DNA of 64,000 nucleotides from Cellulomonas fengjieae. GTDB lineage: Bacteria > Actinomycetota > Actinomycetes > Actinomycetales > Cellulomonadaceae. The translations under genes and the position numbers were made by a program. Of this stretch, positions 25,037-51,384 are shown piece after piece; position 1 is the first letter of the stretch, and each line of letters starts with the position of its first letter. The stretch is from NCBI RefSeq assembly GCF_018388465.1, contig NZ_CP074404.1, positions 2,046,001 to 2,110,000 on the forward strand, given 5' to 3'. The notes below the pieces were generated by a model. That model did no database searches. It was not told the DNA's origin and was given only the letters and a program-made list of their open reading frames with translations.

Positions 25037-26110
25037 TCAGTCTGTCACCAGCCCGGCGTCGCCGCCGGACGCCAGAGCGACCAGCCGCGCGGCCTTGAGC
25101 TCGGTCTCGGCCCACTCGGACTGGGCGTCGCTCCCCCACGTGATCCCGGCTCCCGTCCCGAACCGCAGGACGTCGTCCGCCCACCAGAACGTGCGGATGC
25201 CGACCGCGAGCTCGGCGCGCACCGAGCCGTCCACGGCGACCTCGACCCACCCGACCGCGCCGCAGTAGGGACCGCGGGGCACCGGTTCGAGCGCGTCGAT
25301 GACGTCCAGCGCCGACGACTTCGGCGCACCGGAGACCGAGCCCGGGGGGTAGGTGGCGTCGAGCAGCCGCGCCCACAGGTCCGGGGCCGACGCGACGTCC
25401 TCGGCGAGCGCCCCCTGCACGGTGCTCACCAGGTGCACCAGGCCCGGGTGGTGCTCCTCGCCGAGCAGCGTCGTCACCTCCACCGTGCCGGGCGCACAGA
25501 CCCGCTGCAGGTCGTTGCGCACCAGGTCGGTGATCATGATGTTCTCCGCGCGGTCCTTGTCGGTCATCGCCTCGGCAGTGGCGGCCGTCCCCTTGATGGG
25601 GCCGCTGGTCACGATCCCGTCCGCGATCCGCAGGTACAGCTCCGGGGACGCGCTGACCACCCACGCCTCCCCCGGTACGTGCACCCCGCCCGAGTACGGC
25701 GCGGGGTTGCCCGCGTCCAGCACGGCTCCCAGCGCCCGGGCGTCCGGCTCCCCCGCCAGCGGCGCGCTCAGCATGCGGCAGATGTTGGCCTGGTAGACGT
25801 CGCCCTCCTCGATGTGCGCCCGCACCCGCTCGACGGCCTCGACGTACTGCGCACGGTCGAGCGACGACGTCCAGGCCTCCGGTGAGGGGCCGACCCAGGG
25901 GCCTGGGGCCGCGGGCGCGGACGCGGCGACGTCGGCGAACCGCCAGGCGCGCACGCGGCCCTCGAAGTCCCCCACGACGGCCCACCACCCGGGCGTGACC
26001 AGGCGCTCCGGCTGGAGCCGTACGTCGACGACCTCGAGGACGCCGGACGCCTCGACGCCGGCGAACCACGCCACACCACGTCGACTGCCGGTCTGCTCGG
26101 GCACGCCCAC
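25037..26110 (-). CDS. pabB: Aminodeoxychorismate synthase component I (chorismate-binding)
   Basis: 357-residue chorismate-binding enzyme that aminates chorismate in p-aminobenzoate synthesis. The conserved core is present: SSLDRAQYVEAVERVRAHI (~82-100), ASPELYLR, the PIKGTAATAEAM motif with the Lys that defines the ADC synthase branch (~170-181), TDLVRNDLQRVC, and PPGSVSGAPK. The N-terminal subdomain is short compared with full TrpE/PabB (usually 450 or more residues), as in many actinobacterial versions. GTG at 26110 is the likely start. It runs into the pabC gene with a four-base gap. No glutaminase subunit is visible nearby. Confidence 0.92.
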   Translation of the reverse strand: MGVPEQTGSRRGVAWFAGVEASGVLEVVDVRLQPERLVTPGWWAVVGDFEGRVRAWRFADVAASAPAAPGPWVGPSPEAWTSSLDRAQYVEAVERVRAHIEEGDVYQANICRMLSAPLAGEPDARALGAVLDAGNPAPYSGGVHVPGEAWVVSASPELYLRIADGIVTSGPIKGTAATAEAMTDKDRAENIMITDLVRNDLQRVCAPGTVEVTTLLGEEHHPGLVHLVSTVQGALAEDVASAPDLWARLLDATYPPGSVSGAPKSSALDVIDALEPVPRGPYCGAVGWVEVAVDGSVRAELAVGIRTFWWADDVLRFGTGAGITWGSDAQSEWAETELKAARLVALASGGDAGLVTD

Positions 26111-26172
26111 ACCCTACGGAGCGGGCGCCGGAGCCGTGCGATCCGCACGATCACCCGGGTGCGCGGAGCCAG

Positions 26173-26203
26173 TTGGACTCTCGCCGAGATCGTCGGTTAG
26201 AGT
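26173..26203 (+). promoter_or_regulatory. Candidate promoter of the tRNA cluster
   Basis: TTGGAC (26173-26178) and TTAGAG (26197-26202) are spaced by 18 bases and lie about 48 bases before the first tRNA. They fit loosely the vegetative consensus; no other good candidate is seen before the cluster. Confidence 0.5.
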
Positions 26204-26249
26204 TCGGGACACACACGGAGCACCGGTGAAAACCGGGAGGACGTGCTGT

Positions 26250-26321
26250 GCGGACGTGGCTCAGTGGTAGAGCATCACCTTGCCAAGGTGAGGGTCGCGG
26301 GTTCGAATCCCGTCGTCCGCT
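26250..26321 (+). tRNA. tRNA-Gly (anticodon GCC)
   Basis: Acceptor GCGGACG pairs with CGTCCGC; the anticodon stem TCACC/GGTGA encloses TTGCCAA, giving GCC; the T arm contains GGGTTCGAATCCC. Discriminator T; CCA not encoded. First of three clustered tRNAs. Confidence 0.96.
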
Positions 26322-26376
26322 CGGAGGCAGACACTCCTGATCGGCTGGCTGCAGCCGCTGAGGACTGCGGTCTCAG

Positions 26377-26447
26377 GGTGGAGTGGCCGAGTGGCGAGGC
26401 AGCGGCCTGCAAAGCCGTATACGTGGGTTCGAATCCCATCTCCACCT
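26377..26447 (+). tRNA. tRNA-Cys (anticodon GCA)
   Basis: Acceptor GGTGGAG pairs with CTCCACC; the anticodon loop CTGCAAA gives GCA; the T arm is GGGTTCGAATCCC. CCA not encoded. It lies 55 bases after tRNA-Gly in the same orientation. Confidence 0.95.
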
Positions 26448-26477
26448 CGTAGCAACCTGCTTTAACGGATTCACTCC

Positions 26478-26552
26478 GGGCGATTGGCGCAGCGGTAGCG
26501 CGCTTCCCTGACACGGAAGAGGTCACTGGTTCGATCCCAGTATCGCCCACCA
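26478..26552 (+). tRNA. tRNA-Val (anticodon GAC), CCA encoded
   Basis: Acceptor GGGCGAT pairs with ATCGCCC; the anticodon stem CTTCC/GGAAG encloses CTGACAC, giving GAC. Unlike the other tRNAs here, the 3' CCA is encoded (26550-26552). Its 3' end directly precedes the signalling island, so it is a candidate integration site, though no integrase is seen. Confidence 0.96.
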
Positions 26553-26559
26553 GCATCAC

Positions 26560-26610
26560 TGCACGTCAGAGGGTCGTCACCGAGTCATCGGGGCGGCCCT
26601 CCGTCGTGCA
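26560..26610 (+). terminator. Probable terminator after tRNA cluster
   Basis: A long imperfect stem (26560-26576 with 26594-26610: outer TGCACG/CGTGCA, inner AGGGTCG/CGGCCCT-type pairing) starts eight bases after the tRNA-Val 3' end. The remaining bases up to 26,762 hold the leader of the STAS gene; a TTGACA occurs at 26644-26649 but no convincing -10 follows. Confidence 0.5.
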
Positions 26611-26762
26611 TGAGCCACCGGCCCCTGGCATCACGCTGTCGACTTGACACCGGGGCCCATGCTGGAGGTGTCGTTGGCTCACTGAGCCTACTCACCTTGG
26701 GTGGACCGTCTGCGATGCACAGCACGTAGAACCCGGACCGTCATTGGTCCTCAGGGGTCCCT

Positions 26763-27110
26763 GTGAACACGCGCCTACCCTCGATGATCCGTACCCCCTT
26801 CGCCCAGATACGCGTGACCACCTCCGCAGACAGCGTCCTGATCGCGTTCTCGGGAGAGCTCGACCACTCCCTGACAGAGGAGTTCACACCCATCCCCGCC
26901 GCCCTGAAGGCTTCCGGGCTCCCCGTGCGGGTGGACCTGAGCGAGGTCACCTTCTTCGGTGCATGGGCGGTGCGCGCACTGCTCGCACTTCGCGCGGCCG
27001 CCCCGGGCGGAGTGTTCACCGTGCTGGCGGACAGCGACGCGGTTCGCAGAACTGTGGTCGCCTCTGGCGTCACCGACTTGGTTCCCCTTGTCGGATCCAC
27101 AGCCCTGTGA
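26763..27110 (+). CDS. STAS-domain protein (anti-sigma antagonist-like) without phospho-Ser
   Basis: 115-residue single STAS domain, the fold of anti-sigma-factor antagonists in partner-switching systems. Strand FSGELDHSLTEEF (~29-41) and the VDLSEVTFFGAWAVRALLAL stretch (~57-76) mark the fold. In classical antagonists the motif after the DLS strand contains Asp-Ser, and the Ser is phosphorylated by the HATPase kinase; here that position reads Gly-Ala (FFGAWAV), so control by phosphorylation looks lost. GTG at 26763 is the annotated start; ATG at 26784 is possible. It is the first gene of the signalling island and reads toward a GAF-ANTAR gene 154 bases downstream. Confidence 0.78.
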   Translation: MNTRLPSMIRTPFAQIRVTTSADSVLIAFSGELDHSLTEEFTPIPAALKASGLPVRVDLSEVTFFGAWAVRALLALRAAAPGGVFTVLADSDAVRRTVVASGVTDLVPLVGSTAL

Positions 27111-27264
27111 CGGCTTGCCGGCCACGGCGGGGACATCGCATTGCTACCTCCGCATCGCAGGTCGCCCTGGGCTGCACCGGCGGACCCAGACCTCGTCGGC
27201 GCGCCGAGCAGAGCACCCCCGGTCCAGAAGAGGCCGCCCCCACCTCGCGCACGGAGGCCCTCGT

Positions 27265-27975
27265 GTGACGGACCGCATGTCTGTGCTGGCCTGGCTCGCG
27301 CGCGTGATCGCCGACGGCTCAGGTGACCGACCGCTCGCGCAGCGGTTGTGCGTGGCGTGCGTCGAGATCCTGGACGCGCACGGTGTGGCGATCACATTGG
27401 CGTCGTCGCGCCCCGAACGGCTCACGGTGTGGGCCACCGACGGGACCTCCGCGCGGTTGGAGGACTTGCAGGACGTCTTGGGAGAGGGCCCAGGCCAGGA
27501 AGCCTTCGACACCAACGCCGTCGTGATCACCCACATCGACGGTGAGACCCACGGGCGGTATCCGCTCTTCACCGAGCTGGCGGGGGCAGCCGCGGGCGCC
27601 GCGACGATCTGGGCACTGCCGATGCGCATCTCAGGGGGCCGCGCGGTCGGCGTCGTGACGCTGTACCGCCGGGGCGGACGGCTCGCGGGCACCCTCGAGG
27701 ACGCGCAGCTCCTTGCCGACGCTGTCGGCGCCGTGGTGATCAACGACCCCGACGGACCCGTCAACGGCCAGGCCTGGTCCCTCCGGGCGCGCGTCCATCA
27801 GGCCACCGGGATGGTCGTCGCGCAGCTACGGATGCACCCGGACGACGCGCTCGCCCTGCTGCGCGCGCACGCGTTCGCCGACAGCTCCTCTGTCGACGCC
27901 GTCGCTGAGGCCGTCATCACTCGGGAGCTCACCTTCGCGCAGGCGGAAGACAGCACAGAGAGCGGTACGCCCTGA
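27265..27975 (+). CDS. GAF-ANTAR regulator (copy A of a paralogous pair)
   Basis: 236-residue cytosolic regulator with an N-terminal GAF sensor (~15-150) and a C-terminal ANTAR domain (~172-228; ARVHQATGMVVAQL, then DDALALLRAHAF). ANTAR domains bind paired RNA hairpins and prevent transcription termination, so this is probably a ligand- or redox-responsive antiterminator; the ligand is unknown. It shares the block LEDLQDVLGEGPG and the general layout with the protein encoded at 28779-29519, showing duplication. GTG at 27265 is chosen because GGAGG lies seven bases upstream. It converges with the minus-strand GAF-ANTAR gene at 28084. Confidence 0.85.
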   Translation: MTDRMSVLAWLARVIADGSGDRPLAQRLCVACVEILDAHGVAITLASSRPERLTVWATDGTSARLEDLQDVLGEGPGQEAFDTNAVVITHIDGETHGRYPLFTELAGAAAGAATIWALPMRISGGRAVGVVTLYRRGGRLAGTLEDAQLLADAVGAVVINDPDGPVNGQAWSLRARVHQATGMVVAQLRMHPDDALALLRAHAFADSSSVDAVAEAVITRELTFAQAEDSTESGTP

Positions 27976-28083
27976 ACGAGGTCGCGCACCGCGTTCGCGA
28001 GTAGGAGCTGTGATGGCGAGGCGCAGAAGGGCCGAGTCTCGCCCCTCCGCCCATGGCGCCTCTCTCGGTCCCTCCAGGAGAGC

Positions 28084-28782
28084 TCAGCGCTGGTGGGCGG
28101 CGTGCACCACGTCCTGAGCGACCCGTGCGAGCGTCGACCCGGTGGACCTGGTGCGCGTGATGAGCTCGTCGTACGCCTCCGCCATGCCCAGCCCCAGCTG
28201 CTGCGCCAGCACGCCCTTGGCCTGCTCGACGACGATGCGTCCCTCCAGTGCGAGCGACACGTGACGGGTCAGCTCGTCGTCGGCCATCACCGCCGGCTGC
28301 ACGATGGTCAGCGTCGCCAGGTCAGCCATGCTCTGCGCCAGCACGGCGGCATCGTGGTCGAACTCCTCCGGTCCGGTCGAGAACAGCCCCAGACCCCCGA
28401 GCGCGTGCTCGCGGAACAGCAGTGGGAAGGCGTGCACTGCCTGGAACCCCGCGTCCACGATCTCCCGGCCGACGTCCGGCCAGCGCGCGACGACGGTGTC
28501 CGCGCCCACCGCGAACGTCGCCTCCCCGGCGCGCGAGGCGTCGACGCACGGACCCGACTCGCGTTGGGCCTGGTACAGCTCGAGGTGGGCGACCCCGTGG
28601 GACGTCGCGCTCAGCAGCTCCAGCTCGTCGGCGGCGTTGCGCACCAGGATCGCGGCCGCCGTGACGGGGAGCAGCTCGACGCAGTCGTGCAGGAGCCGTG
28701 CGAGCACTCCGGTGATCTCCTGGTCGTGCACCAGCGCTGCCGCGACCTCAGCGAGGGCTTCTGTCGGTGTGCGTGTTGTCAT
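28084..28782 (-). CDS. GAF-ANTAR regulator
   Basis: 232-residue protein with GAF domain (~20-160; the GPCVDASRAGEATF and HAFPLLFREHALGGLGLF stretches are typical) and a classical ANTAR domain (~170-228; EGRIVVEQAKGVLAQQLGL, then AYDELITRTRSTG). The canonical QAKG-LA signature makes the RNA-binding prediction stronger than for the paralogous pair beside it. ATG at 28782 overlaps the stop of the upstream GAF-ANTAR gene by four bases, so two ANTAR proteins are made from one message in coupled fashion and might heterodimerise. The stop lies about 109 bases from the convergent copy A gene. Confidence 0.88.
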   Translation of the reverse strand: MTTRTPTEALAEVAAALVHDQEITGVLARLLHDCVELLPVTAAAILVRNAADELELLSATSHGVAHLELYQAQRESGPCVDASRAGEATFAVGADTVVARWPDVGREIVDAGFQAVHAFPLLFREHALGGLGLFSTGPEEFDHDAAVLAQSMADLATLTIVQPAVMADDELTRHVSLALEGRIVVEQAKGVLAQQLGLGMAEAYDELITRTRSTGSTLARVAQDVVHAAHQR

Positions 28783-29519
28783 GATCCGTCCATCCCCGTG
28801 CTGTCGTCCGGGAGAGCTTCGTCGACGTCGGAGCCCGACGTGGTGTCCGCGAAGGTGAGGCGTCGCTCGGTGACGGCACGTGCCACCTCATCGAGGGTGG
28901 ACGCCTCCGAGAACGCGTGGGCGCGCAGCAGGGCCAGGGCGTCCTCCGGGGCGACCACGAGCTGCACCACCACCATGCCGGTGGCCTGGTGCACCCGCGC
29001 GCGGTCGGACCAGCCGGCGAACGGTGCCTCCTCGCCGGCCGCGTCGTCGAGCAGCGCAGCACCCACCGCGTCGGCGAGGAACTGCGCGTCTTCGAGGTCC
29101 CCTGCCAAGGGGCCGAGCAACCGGTAGAGGGTGACGACGCCGATGGTGTGACCGCCGGGGTGCATGGGTATGGACCACACAGTCACTGGCCCGGTGATGT
29201 CACGAACAAGCTCATCGAACAGCGGGAATCGTCCATCTCCGGAGCCGTCGACATTCGCGACGACCGCGTGACCATCGCGGTACGCCTCATGCCCAGGCCC
29301 CTCGCCCAGCACGTCCTGCAGGTCCTCCATGCGGGCCGAGTTCCTGTCGGTAGCGCTCACGGTCAGACGCTCCGGCTCGGTCGGAGCCAACGTGATCGAG
29401 CCGCCGTCGGCTCCCAGGATCTCCACGCACGCACGGCACAGCCGTGTCGCGAGAGGCTCGTCAGCGTCGCCGGCCGCCACGGAGGTAGCCAGCCGCCCGA
29501 GCACCACGCTGCGCTTCAT
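28779..29519 (-). CDS. GAF-ANTAR regulator (copy B of a paralogous pair)
   Basis: 246-residue GAF-ANTAR protein, a paralogue of the one at 27265-27975: both carry LATRLCRACVEIL-type helix 1, the MEDLQDVLGEGPG loop and ARVHQATGMVVVQL in the ANTAR domain (~175-228). The C-terminal ~15 residues are acidic and disordered. ATG at 29519 has GGGAGGGAG upstream. Its stop overlaps the start of the next GAF-ANTAR gene by four bases. The ANTAR helix here lacks the usual AKG-x-LM signature, reading ATGMVV, so RNA-binding specificity may differ from that of its partner. Confidence 0.86.
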   Translation of the reverse strand: MKRSVVLGRLATSVAAGDADEPLATRLCRACVEILGADGGSITLAPTEPERLTVSATDRNSARMEDLQDVLGEGPGHEAYRDGHAVVANVDGSGDGRFPLFDELVRDITGPVTVWSIPMHPGGHTIGVVTLYRLLGPLAGDLEDAQFLADAVGAALLDDAAGEEAPFAGWSDRARVHQATGMVVVQLVVAPEDALALLRAHAFSEASTLDEVARAVTERRLTFADTTSGSDVDEALPDDSTGMDGS

Positions 29520-29958
29520 CAGCTCTCCCTCCCCGCTCCGCCCGCGTCGACGTGCCGATGCGCTCCCGACCATCTTCGCCCACCGTCGGGTCTCACGACC
29601 CAGGTACGCAGATGTGCACACGCACCGAGCGGTCCTCGAGCGCTGCCCGAGCGATCCGCCGGAGGCCTCCTCGGTGCTCGGTTGCGCGCCATGGTCCATG
29701 TTCGCCTCCATGCCGCCCGAATGCCCACTCCGGGACGGCAGGACGTGTGCCGAGCCGCTGAGATCCCGGGAGGGAGGCGTCCTCGACGACGTCCGCCACG
29801 AGGCGCCGCTCGACGGCCCCACCGGGTTCCGCGCCGCCCCGGCGCCGGTACCCGAGGTGGTCGCCACCGGACTCCTCGGCGGATGCGCACCTTTCGGACG
29901 TGGCACAAGATGGGGTACTCGCGGCAGATCGCCGCATCGAATCCCCGAGAGCCGACCC
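29520..29958. other. Divergent intergenic region in the signalling island (no gene seen)
   Basis: This 439-base stretch separates the divergent GAF-ANTAR pair (minus) from the HATPase-ANTAR gene (plus). Reading frames here are extensions of the neighbouring genes without ribosome-binding support. Near 29,890 there is CTTT followed 18 bases later by GGGTAC, faintly like a SigB-type promoter but with the spacer too long to count. It should hold both promoters and possibly ANTAR-target hairpins. Confidence 0.5.
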
Positions 29959-30558
29959 GTGCGCCTCCGCTTCACCGCCGACCTGTCGACGATCGCCCGT
30001 GCTCGTCATTGGGTCGTCGATCAGGCGCACGCCCACGGCGCTACCCCTCGCGCGGTCCGGACCGTCGAGCTGCTCGCCAACGAGGCCGTCACCAACGCGG
30101 TCGTCCACGGCCCCGCAGCGGGCGGTGTCGAGGTGAGCATCCGCAGGCGCGGACACCACCTACGCATCAGTGTTCGCGACGAGAGCGACGCCCCGCCGAT
30201 TCTGCGCGACCCCCGCCTCACCGCGCCGGGGGGACGAGGCATCCTGCTCATCGACCGCCTCTCCAGCGCCTGGGGTGTGCAGCCACACCCTGCCGGCGGG
30301 AAGACCGTCTGGTTCGAGCTCCACGACCGCGACCCTGGGACCCCGCAGCCATCAGACGGTGAGGCGCTGCTCGGCCGGCCAGTGGAGGCCGCGCTCGAGG
30401 GGGGAGTCACAGCCGAGCGCGCTAAAGGGGTCCTCGCACAGACCCAGCACATCGACATGGTCGCCGCGGACGACATGCTGCGCCAGATCGCGAACGCGCA
30501 GGACATCACCGACTCGGACGCGGCCGAGAACGTGGTCCGCAGCGCACAGGACCGATAG
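29959..30558 (+). CDS. HATPase (anti-sigma kinase-like) - ANTAR fusion
   Basis: 199-residue protein joining two domains rarely seen together. Residues ~1-125 are an RsbW-type HATPase: N box ELLANEAVTNAVVHGP (~37-52), G1 region ISVRDESDAPP and G2 region GGRGILLIDRLSSAWGV (~91-107). Residues ~138-199 look like an ANTAR RNA-binding domain (EGGVTAERAKGVLAQTQ, followed by the helical repeat region). A partner-switch kinase would thus be tethered to an RNA antiterminator. GTG at 29959 gives MRLRFTADLST, the usual start of such HATPases; the ribosome-binding site is weak. The next gene, 247 bases on, is another GAF-ANTAR. Confidence 0.8.
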   Translation: MRLRFTADLSTIARARHWVVDQAHAHGATPRAVRTVELLANEAVTNAVVHGPAAGGVEVSIRRRGHHLRISVRDESDAPPILRDPRLTAPGGRGILLIDRLSSAWGVQPHPAGGKTVWFELHDRDPGTPQPSDGEALLGRPVEAALEGGVTAERAKGVLAQTQHIDMVAADDMLRQIANAQDITDSDAAENVVRSAQDR

Positions 30559-30650
30559 CCGGTTCACGTGCGGGATGCGGGTGGGCCGGACCTCGCATCA
30601 TCAGCGCGCCTCCCGTGATGCGGTCCGCAGCCTCTCCGTGCTGTACCGGA

Positions 30651-30684
30651 CACTGTGCGGGTAGTGTGCGTAGTGCGCACAGTG
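30651..30684 (+). promoter_or_regulatory. 9-bp inverted repeat upstream of GAF-ANTAR gene
   Basis: CACTGTGCG (30651-30659) and its exact complement CGCACAGTG (30676-30684) flank a 16-base spacer that itself repeats related words (AGTGTGCG). A further GACACTTTGCG follows at about 30,698. It could be an operator, or an RNA hairpin in the leader of the ANTAR gene starting at 30806. Confidence 0.5.
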
Positions 30685-30805
30685 AGCAGACACTTTGCGT
30701 CAGTGGCTCCGACCGGAGCCGGTGTCAGCTTCTGCCCGAGTTCTCGGGTATGGGCGCAGGCAGCTCGGCCACGGGCCGAGTGCCGACCGAATCGGGGTTC
30801 CCCAG

Positions 30806-31543
30806 GTGTCTGCGAGCCTTCCTGAGCGTGATCTGCCACTGGCCGAAGAGCTGGCCACGGTCTTCACGCAGATGTCCGGTCTGCTGCTGTCGCAGGAGAC
30901 GGTCGAGACGGCTCTGCACACGATCGCGACATTGGCGCAGACGACTTTGCCGGGCACGGTTGCAGCTGGCCTGACGTTGGTCGACGTGCACGGGCGCCGG
31001 ACCACAGCCGGCGCGTCGGACCGTGTCACGCAGCGGGCTGACGCGCTGCAGTACGAGCTCGATGAGGGGCCGTGCCTGACCGCGTGCGCACAGCGCACCC
31101 TCGTCCGCGTGGACGACGTCGCGCATGACGAACGCTGGCCGCGGTGGGCTCGAGCGGTGCGGCCGCTCGGGGTGTACTCGACCCTCAGCGCACCCCTGGT
31201 CGCCGGTGACACCACCCTCGGCGCGATCAAGGTCTACGGGCAGCACCCGGGGATCTACGACGCCCATGCCGAACACGTCATGACGTTGTTCGCCGCACAG
31301 GCCGCGGTGCTGGTCGCCAACGTCCAGACGGTGGAGAACGCCCGCAGTCTCAGTACTCAGCTGCGGGATGCGCTGCGCAACCGGGACGTGATCAGCACCG
31401 CCAAGGGAGTGCTGATGGCCCGCGAGGGCGTCGACGAAGACACCGCCTTCGCCCGCCTCGTCGCGATGTCGCAACGCGACGGGCGCAAGCTGCGCGATGT
31501 CGCCGAGACGCTGGTACGCGCCGCATCCCAGCGTCGACGCTGA
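30806..31543 (+). CDS. GAF-ANTAR regulator
   Basis: 245-residue protein with an N-terminal GAF domain (~20-165; the DEGPCLTACAQRTLVRVDDV and STLSAPLVAGDTTLGAIKVY blocks are typical) and a C-terminal classical ANTAR domain (~178-240; RDVISTAKGVLMAREGV). The length and layout match common actinobacterial GAF-ANTAR proteins. GTG at 30806 is chosen because the conserved region begins just after it; an ATG at 30695 would add ~37 unconserved residues and pass through an inverted-repeat region. It ends 12 bases before the GAF-SpoIIE phosphatase gene, so the two probably form an operon. Confidence 0.87.
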   Translation: MSASLPERDLPLAEELATVFTQMSGLLLSQETVETALHTIATLAQTTLPGTVAAGLTLVDVHGRRTTAGASDRVTQRADALQYELDEGPCLTACAQRTLVRVDDVAHDERWPRWARAVRPLGVYSTLSAPLVAGDTTLGAIKVYGQHPGIYDAHAEHVMTLFAAQAAVLVANVQTVENARSLSTQLRDALRNRDVISTAKGVLMAREGVDEDTAFARLVAMSQRDGRKLRDVAETLVRAASQRRR

Positions 31544-31555
31544 GCGCAGGTTCGC

Positions 31556-33067
31556 ATGAGCATGCGTGCCGCCACCGCCGACGAGCAGCGCCACGCCCTG
31601 GACATCGCGTATCGCCGAGCGCACCTGAGCCTCGACGACCTCTGGCTGGCCTACTTCACCCTCGGCGGAGAAGCGGGACCGATGGAGGTCGAGGCGTACC
31701 TGCATGGCCTGATGCCGCTACCCCGCGGGCAGCGCGACATGCTGGCCCACGCGGTCAACGAACGCCTCGACGACCTCACCACGCGACTTCGGGTGCCCTA
31801 CACCCGAACCCTTCGCGACCCGACCCCGATCACCGGGCCCCTTGCCGCACTGGCCGGCCTCCTGGACGGTACCCTCCAGGCCGCGCCGGAAGAGCTCGTT
31901 CGACTCCTCCCCCTTGCCGCCGACGCCCTGGGCGTGCGAGCCGTCCTGCACGTCATCGACTACGCGCAACGCCAGCTGGTCCCCGTGCACCTGGACCCCG
32001 CCGGTCGGGGCCGCATCGTCGGCGGTGAGCCCCTGGGAGTGGACTCCACGCTGGCCGGCCAGGCGTTCCAGCGCGGCCACGCCATCTCCAGCCCTGCCGA
32101 TGACCGGCACCGGATGTGGGTGCCCGTGATCGACGGAGTCGAGCGCCTAGGCGTCCTGGAGATCACCCCGGGCGACGACGAAGACCTCGACGACCCACAG
32201 CTGCGCCGCGACTGCCTCTGGGTGGCCAACCTCGTCGGTCATCTCATCAGTGCCGGCGGTGCGTACGGCGACGCGTTCGACGCAGTACGCCGGACCAAGC
32301 CACGCTCCGCTTCCGGTGAGCTGATCTGGAACCTCATACCGCCCCTGACCGCCGGGACGGACCGCTTCGTGATCGCCGGCCAGTTCGAGCCCTGCGACGA
32401 CGTCGGGGGTGACGCCTTCGACTACGCACTGTCCCAGGAGACCGCCAGGCTCGCGATCTTCGACGCGACGGGCCATTCACTGGCCTCCGGGCTCGCCGCC
32501 GCTGCCGCGCTGGCCGCCTCCCGCAACAGCCGACGCTCCGGCGCGGGACTCGTGGAGCAGGCGTCGGCCATCGACGATGTCATCGCCACGCACTTTGCCG
32601 ACCGCATGATGTACGTCTCGGGGATCCTGGCCGAGATCGACCTGACGACAGGCCGGCTGCGATTCATCGTGGCCGGGCATCCGGCCCCGCTCCTTCTTCG
32701 CGACGGCAAGATCGTCAAATCCTTGGCCGGCGACGGACGAGGCATGTTCGGCCTGCAGATGCGGGCCATGTCCGTGGGCGAGGAAACTCTCGAGCCGGGC
32801 GACCGCCTGCTGCTCTACACCGACGGCATCACGGAGGCTCGCGACCGTGACGGGCAGTTCTTCGGTTCCGACCGACTGGAGAACTTCCTCCAGCGCGCCG
32901 ACGCCGCGGGCTATCCACCGCCGGAGACCGTCCGCCGGCTGACCCGCGCAGTCATGGAACACCAGCACGGCCGCCTGCAGGACGACGCCACCGTTCTGCT
33001 CGCCTCATGGTTGCCGACACCGTCGGAGCACCCGGCACCCGGCACCCCTCGCCGAGCGCTGACCTGA
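31556..33067 (+). CDS. GAF-SpoIIE PP2C-type phosphatase
   Basis: 503-residue serine phosphatase of the partner-switching (RsbU/SpoIIE) type. An N-terminal helical region (~1-85) is followed by a GAF-like domain (~100-235) and the SpoIIE catalytic domain (~262-490). Metal-binding acidic motifs are visible as DDVGGDAFDY (~281-290), FDATGHSLASGLAA (~302-315) and YTDGITEARDRDG (~420-432). Such enzymes dephosphorylate STAS antagonists. The only free STAS protein nearby lacks the phosphorylatable Ser, so the true substrate may lie elsewhere. ATG at 31556, 12 bases after the GAF-ANTAR gene; the ribosome-binding site is weak. Confidence 0.9.
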   Translation: MSMRAATADEQRHALDIAYRRAHLSLDDLWLAYFTLGGEAGPMEVEAYLHGLMPLPRGQRDMLAHAVNERLDDLTTRLRVPYTRTLRDPTPITGPLAALAGLLDGTLQAAPEELVRLLPLAADALGVRAVLHVIDYAQRQLVPVHLDPAGRGRIVGGEPLGVDSTLAGQAFQRGHAISSPADDRHRMWVPVIDGVERLGVLEITPGDDEDLDDPQLRRDCLWVANLVGHLISAGGAYGDAFDAVRRTKPRSASGELIWNLIPPLTAGTDRFVIAGQFEPCDDVGGDAFDYALSQETARLAIFDATGHSLASGLAAAAALAASRNSRRSGAGLVEQASAIDDVIATHFADRMMYVSGILAEIDLTTGRLRFIVAGHPAPLLLRDGKIVKSLAGDGRGMFGLQMRAMSVGEETLEPGDRLLLYTDGITEARDRDGQFFGSDRLENFLQRADAAGYPPPETVRRLTRAVMEHQHGRLQDDATVLLASWLPTPSEHPAPGTPRRALT

Positions 33068-33267
33068 CAACACCCCGGCCGACATCAACGCCGGAGCTGA
33101 GCGCGCGAGAGGGCCCGCGTCGCGCACACCACGCTCTCCCACACCCACTAAACTTCTCAGGCGGGTGATCGCCGACCGGCCCCACGCCGTCGCGCGTTCG
33201 GCCTGGCGCCCACACCCCGACCGACGTAGTCCCTTCGAGCGCGCGCGGGTTCGAGGCCGAAGGACCC

Positions 33268-33316
33268 ACGTCGGGCGCCGGCGGATCCGCCAGGGTGGGG
33301 CGCACGCGCCCGACGT
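33268..33316 (+). terminator. Large inverted repeat between phosphatase gene and deoC
   Basis: The 350-base gap 33,068-33,417 has no gene. It holds a perfect 11-bp inverted repeat ACGTCGGGCGC/GCGCCCGACGT (33268-33278, 33306-33316) with a nested 12-bp palindrome GGCGGATCCGCC (33280-33291). Likely a terminator of the signalling operon or part of the deoC leader; which one is open. Confidence 0.5.
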
Positions 33317-33417
33317 CGGCGGACCCCGCACGCACCATCCCCCACACGACGCACGCACACGCCTCACGACCACGTGATCCGGACGGCCGGAGCCGCCCAG
33401 ATCGACAGGAGAGTCCC

Positions 33418-34113
33418 ATGACCACGACCGCCACCACCGGCATCGACCCCGCCGCGCTCGCCCAGTACGTCGACCACACCCTGCTCAAGCCCGAGGCGAC
33501 AGCAGCGGACGTGGCCGCCCTGGTCGCCGAAGGTGCGCAGCTCGGCGTGTACTCGGTGTGCGTCTCGCCGTCGTTCCTGCCGCTGGACCTCACCCAGGCG
33601 CCGAACCTGCGGGTCGCTGTGGTGTGCGGCTTCCCCTCCGGCAAGCACCACAGCAGCATCAAGGCCGCCGAGGCGGCACTGGCCGTGCAGCACGGGGCCG
33701 ACGAGGTCGACATGGTGATCGACGTCGGCGCAGCCAGGTCCGGGGACTTCGCCGCGGTCGAGGCCGACATCGCCGCCGTCCGCGCCGCAGTGCCGGCCCC
33801 CGGGGTCCTGAAGGTCATCGTCGAGTCCGCGGCGCTCGACGACGCGCAGATCGTCGGCACCTGCCGAGCCGCCGTCGCCGCGGGCGCCGACTTCGTGAAG
33901 ACCTCCACGGGCTTCCACCCAGCCGGCGGCGCCACCGTGCACGCCGTCGAGCTGATGCGCGCGACCGTCGGACCCACGATGGGCGTCAAGGCATCGGGCG
34001 GCATCCGCACCGCCGCGGACGCGCTGGCCCTCATCGAGGCGGGCGCCACCCGCCTGGGCCTGTCCGCCACGGGCGCCGTGCTCGCCGGCCTGGACGGCGG
34101 CGCCGGCTACTGA
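33418..34113 (+). CDS. deoC: Deoxyribose-phosphate aldolase
   Basis: 231-residue class I aldolase splitting 2-deoxyribose 5-phosphate into acetaldehyde and glyceraldehyde 3-phosphate in deoxynucleoside catabolism. Family blocks: [16 protein letters not shown] (~17-32), [19 protein letters not shown] (~74-92), the EVDMVIDVG strand (~101-109), and the Schiff-base Lys in [13 protein letters not shown] (~159-171) with a second Lys in [14 protein letters not shown] at 33418 has AGGAGA upstream. It is transcribed alone, toward a convergent aldo/keto reductase gene. An inverted repeat (34150-34159 with 34186-34195) just past the stop could end its transcript. Confidence 0.95.
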
Positions 34114-34174
34114 CCGGCGACTGCGACCGACCGGGCTCCCCCGTCGGAGCGCCACCGGGTCGTGGGCGACCTCG

Positions 34175-35197
34175 TCAGAGCCCACCCCGGTGGCGTTGCG
34201 CCACGCCGGCGGTGCCGTAGGGGTAGTCGTCGACCCTCGGCGCGCTCACCTCGGTCAGCCGCTCGAGCTCGGCGGCCGTGAGCACCAGGTCGGCGGCGCG
34301 CAGGTTGTCGCCGAGCTGCTCGCTCGTGCGGGCTCCGATGATGACCGAGGTGACCCCCGGGCGGGCTGCGAGCCACGCCAGGGCGACCTGGGACATGGTC
34401 ACCTCGCGGGCGTCGGCGACCTCCCGGACGGCGTCGATGACACGCCACGTCCTCTCATCGGCGTTCCGTGCCTCCCACGCCTCCATGCCTCGGGTGGGAT
34501 CCTCGCCCAGCCGGGACGAGCCCTGCGGGAGGACGTCCCGCTCGTACTTCCCGGTGAGCCAGCCGCCGGCCAGCGGTGACCACGGCAACAGCCCGAGGCC
34601 CGCGTCGAGGGCTGCGGGAACGACCTCGTGCTCGATGTCGCGTACGAGCAGGTTGTACTGGGGCTGGAGCGTGACCGGCCGCGACCAGTCATGGGCACGC
34701 GCCGTGTGGACGGCCTTCGTGAGCTGCCACCCGAGGTAGTTGGAGAATCCGTAGTACGAGATCTTGCCCGCGGCGACGGCCTCGTCGAGGAACCCGAGCG
34801 TCTCCTCGACGGGGGTGAGCGCGTCCCAGGCGTGCATCTGGTAGAGGTCGATGTGCTCGACACCCAGGCGACGCAGTGAGGCATCGAGCGCCTCGCGCAG
34901 ATGGCGGCGAGACAGGCCCAGGTCGTTGCGACCGTCTCCCATCGCGAACCGCCCCTTCGTCGCCACGACGAGCTGCCGTGCGTCCGTGGGGTGGGCGGCG
35001 AGCCAGCGTCCGAGAATCTCCTCGGAGCCGCCCTGCGAGTAGACGTCGGCGGTGTCGACGAACGTCCCGCCGTGCTCGACGAACGTCGTCATCATCTCGG
35101 CGGACGCCCGTTCGTCCGCCTCGGCGCCGAACGTCATGGTGCCGAGGCACTGCGCCGAGACGATCGTTCCGCTGGTGCCGAGGGTGCGGTACTGCAT
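34175..35197 (-). CDS. Aldo/keto reductase
   Basis: 340-residue NADPH-dependent aldo/keto reductase of the (beta/alpha)8 class. The catalytic tetrad is traceable: Asp in FVDTADVYSQGGSEE (Asp and Tyr, ~45-59), Lys in VVATKGRFAMGDG (~77-89), and His in YQMHAWDALTPVEE (~118-131). The C-terminal VIIGARTSEQLGDNL block binds the cofactor phosphate. The substrate is unknown. The start ATG at 35197 has GGAGGGG upstream. It is convergent with deoC and divergent from the sulfate-permease remnant. General stress or sugar-aldehyde metabolism is plausible but not shown. Confidence 0.92.
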   Translation of the reverse strand: MQYRTLGTSGTIVSAQCLGTMTFGAEADERASAEMMTTFVEHGGTFVDTADVYSQGGSEEILGRWLAAHPTDARQLVVATKGRFAMGDGRNDLGLSRRHLREALDASLRRLGVEHIDLYQMHAWDALTPVEETLGFLDEAVAAGKISYYGFSNYLGWQLTKAVHTARAHDWSRPVTLQPQYNLLVRDIEHEVVPAALDAGLGLLPWSPLAGGWLTGKYERDVLPQGSSRLGEDPTRGMEAWEARNADERTWRVIDAVREVADAREVTMSQVALAWLAARPGVTSVIIGARTSEQLGDNLRAADLVLTAAELERLTEVSAPRVDDYPYGTAGVAQRHRGGL

Positions 35198-35362
35198 GGT
35201 GTACCCCTCCTGGTTGCCGACTGGATCGAGGACATCACGAGTCTGCGGCGCCCGCCACCGTGCGCGGCGCCCGATCTGCGTCGATGGTGGAGGCACGCCG
35301 GAACGCGCCGCATGACGCGCCGCGGGGACCGGCGACAGGGTGCTGGGCCCCAGCTCGGCGTC

Positions 35363-35901
35363 ATGACGTTCGGCATCCTGCAGGGCGTGTTCATCGGGGT
35401 CGGGCTCTCCATCCTCTGGCTGGTGTCACGCTCCGCCCTGCCCCCCATCCCCGAGCTCGGTCGCAAGCCCGGTACCGACGCGTTCTACGACCTCACTCAG
35501 GGCGACGACTTCGAGACGTATCCCGGGATCCTCGTCCTGCGCTTCGACTGCGGTCTGTTCTTCGTGAACGCCGACGCCCACGGCGACCCGCTGCACCGGA
35601 TCCGCACCGAATCGGGGCAACAGCTCGGCGCCGTCATCCTCAGCATGGAGGGCGTCGACTTCATCGACACCGAGGGCGCCGACGTCCTCAAGAAGCTGGC
35701 CAAGGCTGACGCGGTCCGCGGGATCGACCTGCGACTGGCCCGGGTCAAGCCGAGGGTCGAGCGCGTGCTGGCGCGCGACGGCTTCTTCGACGTGATCGGC
35801 CGCGACCCCTGCACGACACCATCGCGCAGGCGGTCGAGACGCACCTCACGCTGCATCCTGCGCCGCCGGAGCGGAAGCCCGGGGCGCGGTCGCGCTCCTG
35901 A
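35363..35901 (+). pseudogene. SulP-type sulfate permease remnant (C-terminal STAS part, frameshifted)
   Basis: Only the end of a SulP anion transporter survives. The start, GVMTFGILQGVFIGVGLSIL, matches the last membrane helix of SulP proteins, followed by a linker and a STAS domain with FDCGLFFVNAD, ILSMEGVDFIDTEGAD and VKPRVERVLARDGFFDVIGRD. Around 35,806-35,815 the frame breaks: the expected continuation LHDTIAQAVETHLTLHP reads in a different frame and ends at the stop 35899-35901. The upstream ~10 membrane helices are missing, and the DNA before 35,350 (between it and the divergent reductase) shows no permease sequence. So this is a truncated, frameshifted pseudogene, not a free STAS protein. 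Confidence 0.85.
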
Positions 35902-50147: not shown

Positions 50148-51143
50148 TCACCCGCCGGGAGAGGTCGTGGCGGACGCGCGCTGCGTGCCCCGGGGCCGCC
50201 GGTCCTCCTCCGTCGTCCAGGCGCGGCTCGGCGACATCGGCAGATGCGGGCTGGCGAGGATCTGCATGGCGATACCGCGCGCCTCGTTACGGCGCTTGGC
50301 GGTCGCGAGGACGAACCGTGCGGCGGCGCCCACGACGGGCACGCCACGCAGGTCCACGACGACGCCGTCGCGGCCTTCGCCGGCGGCCGTGAGCCTGCTC
50401 AGTGCGCCGGCGAGCTCCCTCAGCGACGCGAGGTCGACCCGCCCGCTCACCCGCAGCGTGGGCGTCGTCGCCGCGAGGTCGACCGACAGACGCACGGGCT
50501 CGGCCGTCGTCCGCTGAACCGGGAGATCGCCGTCCTCGAGCACGGCGACGAAGGTCTCATCCATCCTCGCCCTCAGCTGAGGACCCATACCGCCGAACGA
50601 CCGCACGGCCCCGACCAGCCGCTCGGCCAGCACCCGGAGCCTGACGCTGCGCTGCTGGGAGGCCCATCGCAACATCTGGAACGCCTCCTCCGCGTCTACC
50701 CCGTAGACGAGCATGAGGGCGCCCTTGGCCTGGTCGATGACCGCGTGCGACTCCAGGGCTCGCTGGAGCTCGGCGTTGACGCCCGCGGAGATCGCCTCGC
50801 GCTGGCGCGTCGAGTCGTCGATGAGCACCCCCGACACCGTGGCCGTCAGGTCGTCGGGCCGGGCGGGTGCGAGGGCGATCACGACGTCGCGCGTCTCCCC
50901 GGAGAGGTCGGCCAACCGGTAGTCGCAGCCGGCCGGGACCCGCTCCACCACGCTCGCGTGCAGGGCGTACTCGACCCGCCCGCGGTCCTCGGGATGAACG
51001 TGGCTGAGGAACAGCTCGCGGGTCGGCACGACGTCGCCCGGTTCCATGCCGTGCAACGTGTACATCGCATCCGACCAGAGCCATCGAGGCGCATCGGGCG
51101 AGAACGAGAACTGGCCCAGGGCCATCGACGTCGGGGTAGTCAC
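50148..51143 (-). CDS. PAS-ANTAR-STAS triple-domain regulator
   Basis: 331-residue protein combining a PAS sensor (~10-115; WLWSDAMYTLHGMEPGD and HPEDRGRV are PAS-fold blocks), a classical ANTAR domain (~124-182; LESHAVIDQAKGALML) and a C-terminal STAS domain (~221-305). PAS-ANTAR proteins are common in actinobacteria, but a trailing STAS is unusual and links RNA antitermination with partner-switch chemistry. The STAS motif reads VVDLRGVPVVGAAARFVLA, so the phospho-Ser position is again replaced by Gly-Ala. GTG at 51143 is chosen because GGAGGA lies five bases upstream. The last ~25 residues are disordered. Confidence 0.85.
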   Translation of the reverse strand: MTTPTSMALGQFSFSPDAPRWLWSDAMYTLHGMEPGDVVPTRELFLSHVHPEDRGRVEYALHASVVERVPAGCDYRLADLSGETRDVVIALAPARPDDLTATVSGVLIDDSTRQREAISAGVNAELQRALESHAVIDQAKGALMLVYGVDAEEAFQMLRWASQQRSVRLRVLAERLVGAVRSFGGMGPQLRARMDETFVAVLEDGDLPVQRTTAEPVRLSVDLAATTPTLRVSGRVDLASLRELAGALSRLTAAGEGRDGVVVDLRGVPVVGAAARFVLATAKRRNEARGIAMQILASPHLPMSPSRAWTTEEDRRPRGTQRASATTSPGG

Positions 51144-51384
51144 ATGTCCTCCGGCGCTGCACACGTGGACGGATCCCGATCGCCCGGCTCATTGCCGAAC
51201 CTGGGGGATCCGCCGGGTCGACCGGTGACGGGACCGACCTGTGGGGCTGCGTGCCAGCAGGCTAGGACAGCCCGGCGGCGGCCGCGACCGGGGCGTCCGG
51301 TCGCACGTTCGCGCCGATCTCAGGACAATCGGGACCTCCGGGTGGCGCAGCGAGGCAGCCATCGCGCAGGGAGACGGGTGACAG

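Follow-up and report, generated by a model that had tools for sequence, protein, structure and literature searches.

Within a 64,000-nucleotide stretch of the Cellulomonas fengjieae genome, a single contig of 3,989,908 bases (NZ_CP074404.1), lies an island of signalling genes which brings together proteins of partner-switching systems and proteins with the ANTAR domain, a domain of RNA-binding type. The stretch is referred to below as the window, and the island occupies its positions 26763-33067. A sequence-only reading of this DNA listed here a STAS protein, a HATPase-ANTAR fusion, a SpoIIE phosphatase and four GAF-ANTAR proteins without a sigma factor, and proposed that output goes through transcription antitermination. 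Pfam profile searches agree with that gene content, and sigma-factor profiles have no match within the island. Gene order and protein fusions tie partner-switch proteins to ANTAR proteins, and one locus with such a coupling has an intact phosphorylation site (phosphosite); antitermination by the island is unproven.

Gene content of the island

The island opens on the plus strand with a STAS gene of the anti-sigma-antagonist type (26763-27110, 115 amino acids), which matches STAS_2 at 40.5 bits (cut-off 29.2) and TIGR00377 below cut-off. It is followed on the same strand by a GAF-ANTAR gene of the HQATGM type (27265-27975), with a GAF domain slightly under the cut-off (28.0 vs 28.6). Two further GAF-ANTAR genes lie on the minus strand (28084-28782 and the HQATGM-type 28779-29519) and overlap by 4 nt. 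The plus strand then carries the HATPase_c_2-ANTAR fusion of 199 amino acids (29959-30558), in which an RsbW/SpoIIAB-type kinase domain (54.3 bits, cut-off 27.4) is joined to a C-terminal ANTAR (29.3 bits, cut-off 27.3). The last two genes, also on the plus strand, encode the fourth GAF-ANTAR protein (30806-31543) and the SpoIIE-type phosphatase (31556-33067; SpoIIE at 139 bits). Start positions are our own reading of frame and ribosome-binding-like sequence, the likely starts being GTG at 27265, 29959 and 30806, and ATG at 31556 and, on the minus strand, 29519.

The four GAF-ANTAR genes score 30.8, 46.3, 25.2 and 72.1 bits for ANTAR. Four of the five island ANTARs exceed the cut-off of PF03861 per protein; the fifth, in 28779-29519, is under the curated cut-off at 25.2 bits and passes it only in a six-frame search (28.7 bits), and the ANTAR domains which had been called by motif in the fusion and the HQATGM proteins are in this way found by Pfam. 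The 3.99-Mb genome holds 11 ANTAR matches, and as five of them fall within 6.3 kb the clustering is not chance. All frames of the island are open and coding-like in composition. The fusion is a single frame without stops, with a third-position GC of 0.88, again coding-like, in its tail. In the SpoIIE protein D286, D303, D423, D476 and D477, which we take to belong to the metal-binding Asp motifs of SpoIIE phosphatases, are invariant across 20 aligned rows.

A GAF-ANTAR/SpoIIE gene pair across actinobacteria

The SpoIIE protein starts with a helical domain of ~70-85 residues, and its alpha/beta middle part is, on our reading of the secondary structure, GAF-like. We collected 19 family loci, and 80 named loci by a search with the N-terminal half of the phosphatase, and annotated them with profiles built in this analysis. 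Of the 70 rows whose phosphatase has the complete N-terminal domain (the window among them), 65 carry a GAF-ANTAR gene immediately before it in the same orientation. Eleven of these rows duplicate DNA, leaving 59 distinct loci, and 54 of the 59 distinct phosphatases with the helical domain are paired, against 0/29 control loci in which the phosphatase matches only from the GAF-like part onward. One locus with a partial N-terminal domain (L203) was counted separately and also has the GAF-ANTAR partner. By record titles the paired loci belong to Cellulomonas, Isoptericola, Georgenia, Oceanitalea, Puerhibacterium, Lentzea, Amycolatopsis, Saccharothrix and Nocardia, and a Kibdelosporangium locus (L173) is unpaired. 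In a Pfam check eight partner genes from seven genera exceeded the cut-offs for both GAF and ANTAR, and one phosphatase that for SpoIIE. The pair stays together at about 41-62% identity to the window phosphatase, whereas the domain-less look-alikes are never paired. The association of SpoIIE with ANTAR proteins noticed at one locus by the sequence-only reading recurs in the gene-neighbourhood survey.

The wider neighbourhoods also differ between the two groups. Among 51 named pair-type loci (up to 12.8 kb, L203 included) an ANTAR gene is present in 50 and at least two in 25, with STAS in 21 and HATPase in 8; the corresponding counts for the 29 control loci are 6, 0, 1 and 2. Sigma profiles match in 1/51 of the former vs 5/29 of the latter. 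A STAS gene adjoins a same-strand ANTAR gene in 12 of the 51 named loci, and in the window. In three Nocardia loci (L165, L168 and L175, two of one species) a HATPase gene directly precedes the GAF-ANTAR/SpoIIE pair, and in L165, the one of the three tested with Pfam, it encodes a MEDS-HATPase. Another genome (G005) has the order GAF-ANTAR, SpoIIE, GAF, HATPase.

The idea that the N-terminal domain of the phosphatase is a degenerate ANTAR was rejected, because its probability in profile comparison did not exceed 0.4%. For the N-terminal domain of RsbU no row appears among those listed, which does not exclude that identity, and an XRE/Cro-type helix-turn-helix was considered as a further candidate fold. 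The phosphatase fold is nearest to Rv1364c and SpoIIE, in structure matches which cover the phosphatase domain only.

The STAS protein and the HATPase-ANTAR fusion as partners

Among the matches listed in 150 family genomes (own apart), the best two to the fusion are kinases of two genomes of the same genus (G136 and G083). One protein-database fragment (P0002) is closer still within the region it spans; of the relatives with a named source, a Cellulomonas protein (P0003) comes nearest to the kinase domain. The gene directly upstream of each of the two kinases encodes a STAS protein (loci L075 and L076). In a comparison which took in the frames of the window, L012-L014, L075-L100 and L156-L235, these are the nearest relatives of the window STAS (57% over 97 and 61% over 74 residues), just as the kinases beside them are nearest to the fusion kinase (61% and 60%). 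Of these two STAS proteins, that of L076 passes the Pfam cut-off and that of L075 does not (21.7 vs 29.2). Because STAS and kinase genes are adjacent in these relatives, the STAS and HATPase-ANTAR proteins of the island look like a cognate pair.

Neither of the related kinases has an ANTAR domain. The sole other phmmer hit of the fusion tail at E 1e-3 is the ANTAR of the adjacent 28084 gene, which is its nearest relative among the compared neighbourhoods (40% over 62 residues, E 6e-6, BLAST). The HATPase-ANTAR arrangement did not recur in 93 other protein-database matches to the fusion, and none of the other matches listed in the 150 family genomes covers the tail; of 135 ANTAR frames in annotated neighbourhoods the only one fused to a HATPase is the window's own. 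Four listed genomes with a match reaching well past the kinase domain were examined, and no ANTAR was present in any of these proteins; two of them are kinase-STAS proteins, which carry STAS where the window fusion has ANTAR. L316, where SpoIIE is also present, and L318 are such cases, long proteins in which STAS follows a related HATPase domain.

A locus with an intact phosphosite

Elsewhere in this genome, at C1:1906.8-1909.3 kb, Pfam identifies a PAS-ANTAR-STAS gene and, after it, a PAS-SpoIIE-HATPase_c_2 gene. This locus has a kinase, a phosphatase and a STAS domain with Ser at the phosphosite column, which we take to be the position of SpoIIAA Ser58. We examined 47 family ANTAR-STAS proteins, found mostly with this PAS-ANTAR-STAS protein as query and drawn from a longer list of matches; the PAS domain was checked in part of them only. 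Ser occupies this column in every one of the 19 whose next gene downstream encodes SpoIIE-HATPase, and the 28 unlinked proteins have 12 Pro, 10 Ala, 3 Ser, 1 Thr, 1 Lys and 1 Arg. A perfect rule linking Ser to adjacency, which eight unlinked proteins had suggested, was abandoned once 20 more had been added, the 28 then including 3 with Ser and 1 with Thr. Most simply, selection would preserve Ser wherever a kinase and a phosphatase are available.

Just past this gene pair, on the opposite strand, lie an ECF sigma factor gene and a likely anti-sigma gene (L014 2470-3698). A second ANTAR cluster of the genome (L012 6353-12449; C1:1777-1783 kb) contains a GAF-ANTAR gene, a PAS-ANTAR-STAS gene whose phosphosite column is Ala, and a second GAF-ANTAR gene, of the HQATGM type, which resembles the island gene 28779. 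The PAS-ANTAR-STAS gene that the sequence-only reading placed at 50148 in the window (50148-51164, minus strand) is borne out for PAS_3 and ANTAR, both over cut-off, but its STAS is under cut-off (25.9 vs 29.2; 20.8 vs 22.6), and by alignment the phosphosite column has Ala.

Probable insertion site and surroundings

The left edge of the island is marked by three plus-strand tRNA genes (26250-26549; Rfam tRNA matches, named Gly, Cys and Val from an identical trio in a relative), and deoC lies to the right. That relative (G182) has the most similar deoC found in the genus (89%), preceded by the same, sequence-identical trio and a short spacer. Window positions 26001-26598 and 33325-34127 align to it at 86% and 88%, so that the 6.7 kb between them (26599-33324) correspond to 273 bp there. 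Among 30 deoC loci (own included, 1.5 kb flank) only G182 has the trio beside deoC, and the island-free site therefore rests on one genome. Insertion is the simpler reading than loss in G182, because the phosphatase is patchily distributed: it is matched at E 1e-60 in 32/221 family genomes, own included and G182 not among them, and several of the 32 matches do not have the N-terminal part. No integrase was seen among the island reading frames, and there are no exact repeats of at least 11 nt between the island ends. Further right, window positions 34901-35800 encode a STAS domain (56.5 bits) preceded by a single hydrophobic segment; to us this looks like the C-terminal end of a SulP-type transporter without the remainder.

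Proposed mechanism and alternative explanations

Our tentative reading, which we hold at slightly under even odds, is of a signalling cassette, most simply an acquired one, that couples a partner switch to ANTAR proteins instead of a sigma factor. Its core would be a two-gene unit, the GAF-ANTAR gene 30806-31543 followed by the SpoIIE phosphatase gene 31556-33067. Probably the helical N-terminal domain of the phosphatase serves for docking on the GAF-ANTAR partner or for control by it, as the pairing of 54/59 against 0/29 suggests. The STAS protein 26763 and the HATPase-ANTAR fusion would form a cognate binding pair, as gene order in the two relatives indicates. The ANTAR tail of the kinase resembles, if weakly, the ANTAR of the neighbouring GAF-ANTAR gene, and would most likely serve to form heterodimers with the GAF-ANTAR proteins; STAS binding may then free or capture an ANTAR complex. 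The version of this circuit with an intact phosphosite would be that at C1:1906.8-1909.3 kb, where STAS is on the ANTAR protein itself, beside a SpoIIE-kinase. Any final effect on RNA would be exerted by the ANTARs which keep their RNA-reading residues, above all the SpoIIE-paired GAF-ANTAR.

Several observations weigh against this reading. The island STAS protein has Ala at the phosphosite (FFGAWA), as have those of L075 and L076, so that SpoIIE and kinase cannot cycle it there. Phosphatases with the helical domain are unpaired at five distinct loci (L095, L097, L160, L173 and L198), and one ANTAR gene lies somewhere within 12 kb in 6/29 control loci. The paired loci also share descent and so are not independent trials; given this, what counts is that the pair is retained at the divergence reported above and never occurs in domain-less look-alikes. 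The link between Ser and adjacency needs two changes on the tree, with 1-2 independent pairs in nearly one lineage, and is therefore close to one event, for which the paired test has no power.

Further points concern RNA. The RNA-reading residues of EutV include the G4-reading R142, K149, E160 and Y164 (PMC8934654), and these were placed on the island ANTARs by alignment with 6wsh. The 30806 protein has R, K, E and F at the four positions and the 28084 protein R, K, M and Y. The fusion has G, K, M and D, and the two HQATGM proteins R, T, P and L, so that four of the five island ANTARs are without one or more key residues. We also scanned for paired hexaloop hairpins (A at loop position 1, G at 4) in the window and in gene leaders, targets elsewhere in the genome not being covered, and compared the counts with shuffles. 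The window has no strict pair, and its 10 relaxed pairs compare with 6-15 in shuffles; pairs occur in 1/54 leaders of the GAF-ANTAR/SpoIIE pair (shuffle mean 1.75) and in 1/19 PAS-ANTAR-STAS leaders (0.57 in shuffles). On the minus strand at 2594-2651, two near-identical tandem units of ~28 bases resemble a paired hairpin under the relaxed criteria. Rfam finds nothing besides tRNAs in window positions 24000-54000.

These results bear on an alternative close to the original proposal, that GAF-ANTAR proteins released by the switch bind paired hexaloop hairpins in transcripts from elsewhere in the genome, causing antitermination or altered translation. We consider this rather unlikely. Actinobacterial ANTAR proteins and their predicted targets are documented (PMC8164766), and most G4-reading positions are retained in SpoIIE-paired ANTARs: among 52 of these from other loci R142 is present in 52, E160 in 41, an aromatic residue at 164 in 44 and K149 in 35. 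However, positions 172-177 are mostly unlike EutV in the same proteins, four of the five island ANTARs have lost E160 and three of them the aromatic 164 as well, and hairpin pairs are not above shuffles in the window or the 54 leaders, a result which leaves trans targets outside its scope. RNA action in the manner of EutV therefore appears unlikely for several of the island proteins, judging from their residues, and a role of ANTAR as a docking or dimerisation part suits those poor in RNA-reading residues better. With a STAS protein without a phosphorylatable residue, ANTAR contacts lost in the fusion and the two HQATGM proteins, and hexaloops that are not enriched in the window or the 54 leaders, the antitermination output of the sequence-only reading finds no support here; its network claim stands in so far as partner-switch and ANTAR proteins belong together, as the 54/59 pairing, the STAS/HATPase relatives and the C1 pair indicate.

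A hidden sigma output, in which the kinase and STAS protein act in trans on WhiG or a FliA-like sigma factor and the ANTAR genes are mere neighbours in a regulator hotspot, seems to us improbable. It would suit the position beside tRNA genes and the patchy phosphatase. The genome has 26 Sigma70_r2 matches, 25 of them over cut-off. By our reading all but three are ECF-like, the exceptions being SigA, a WhiG which passes its NCBIfam cut-off and a FliA/WhiG-like protein which does not. No SigB/SigF-type sigma factor was found among them, WhiG and the FliA/WhiG-like protein both falling below the SigB/F/G cut-off, and the kinase-ANTAR and ANTAR-STAS fusions and the 54/59 pairing are not neighbourhood effects. 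We give equally low credence to a decayed cassette of partly degenerate regulators (the Ala-STAS and the degenerate ANTARs), with little function beyond the GAF-ANTAR/SpoIIE pair. The lost phosphosite and RNA contacts would agree with decay, as would absence from G182 and the phosphatase count of 32/221. Against it stand the open, coding-like frames, and the Ala-type STAS is common to two relatives beside the kinase and is therefore not recent decay.

Coupling of ANTAR to partner-switch proteins is, on the comparative evidence, well supported. The more general claim, that actinobacterial partner switching controls ANTAR RNA-binding proteins, is in our view evenly poised. It would involve a SpoIIE with a docking domain outside Pfam and a GAF-ANTAR partner, STAS on ANTAR where the phospho-switch is intact and, here, a kinase-ANTAR fusion.

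Relation to known systems and significance

The island resembles the SpoIIAB-SpoIIAA-SpoIIE and RsbW-RsbV-RsbU systems (and Rv1364c) in having a HATPase_c_2 kinase, a STAS antagonist and a SpoIIE phosphatase over Pfam cut-offs. It differs from them in the missing sigma factor, the ANTAR tail of the kinase and a STAS protein without a phosphorylatable residue at the usual site. That partner switching normally ends on a sigma factor, as the sequence-only reading held, is too strong: SiaABCD-type switches have a non-sigma output, SiaD being a diguanylate cyclase, whereas the partners in the island are ANTAR proteins. The kinase domain of the fusion matches the RsbA-type MEDS-HATPase model NF041045 at 47.3 bits (cut-off 210), and as noted above a Nocardia MEDS-HATPase gene (L165) precedes the GAF-ANTAR/SpoIIE pair, but the fusion has no MEDS domain and an added ANTAR. 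The ANTAR domain is shared with EutV, NasR, AmiR and PdtaR (PDB 6wsh/6ww6, 1s8n); a receiver-ANTAR protein of the same genome (L013) can be aligned almost end to end with 1s8n and 6wsh. The island ANTARs differ in being joined to GAF or fused to a kinase, and several are without RNA contact residues.

No paper linking ANTAR to STAS, SpoIIE, anti-sigma antagonists or partner switching was found in the open-access literature. The PAS-ANTAR-STAS combination may already be within the 17 ANTAR architectures of PMC3369931, and the same source states that as of 2012 no ANTAR protein with PAS or GAF had been characterised. ANTAR matches number from 1 to 17 in 80/81 genomes of the genus. For ANTAR proteins without a receiver domain, the link to SpoIIE and an RsbW-type kinase gives a testable route of activation. 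It also offers a reason for the ten SpoIIE matches of this genome (nine over cut-off) where no SigB/SigF-type sigma factor was found. If true, control of ANTAR proteins would be a post-initiation class of output for partner switches.

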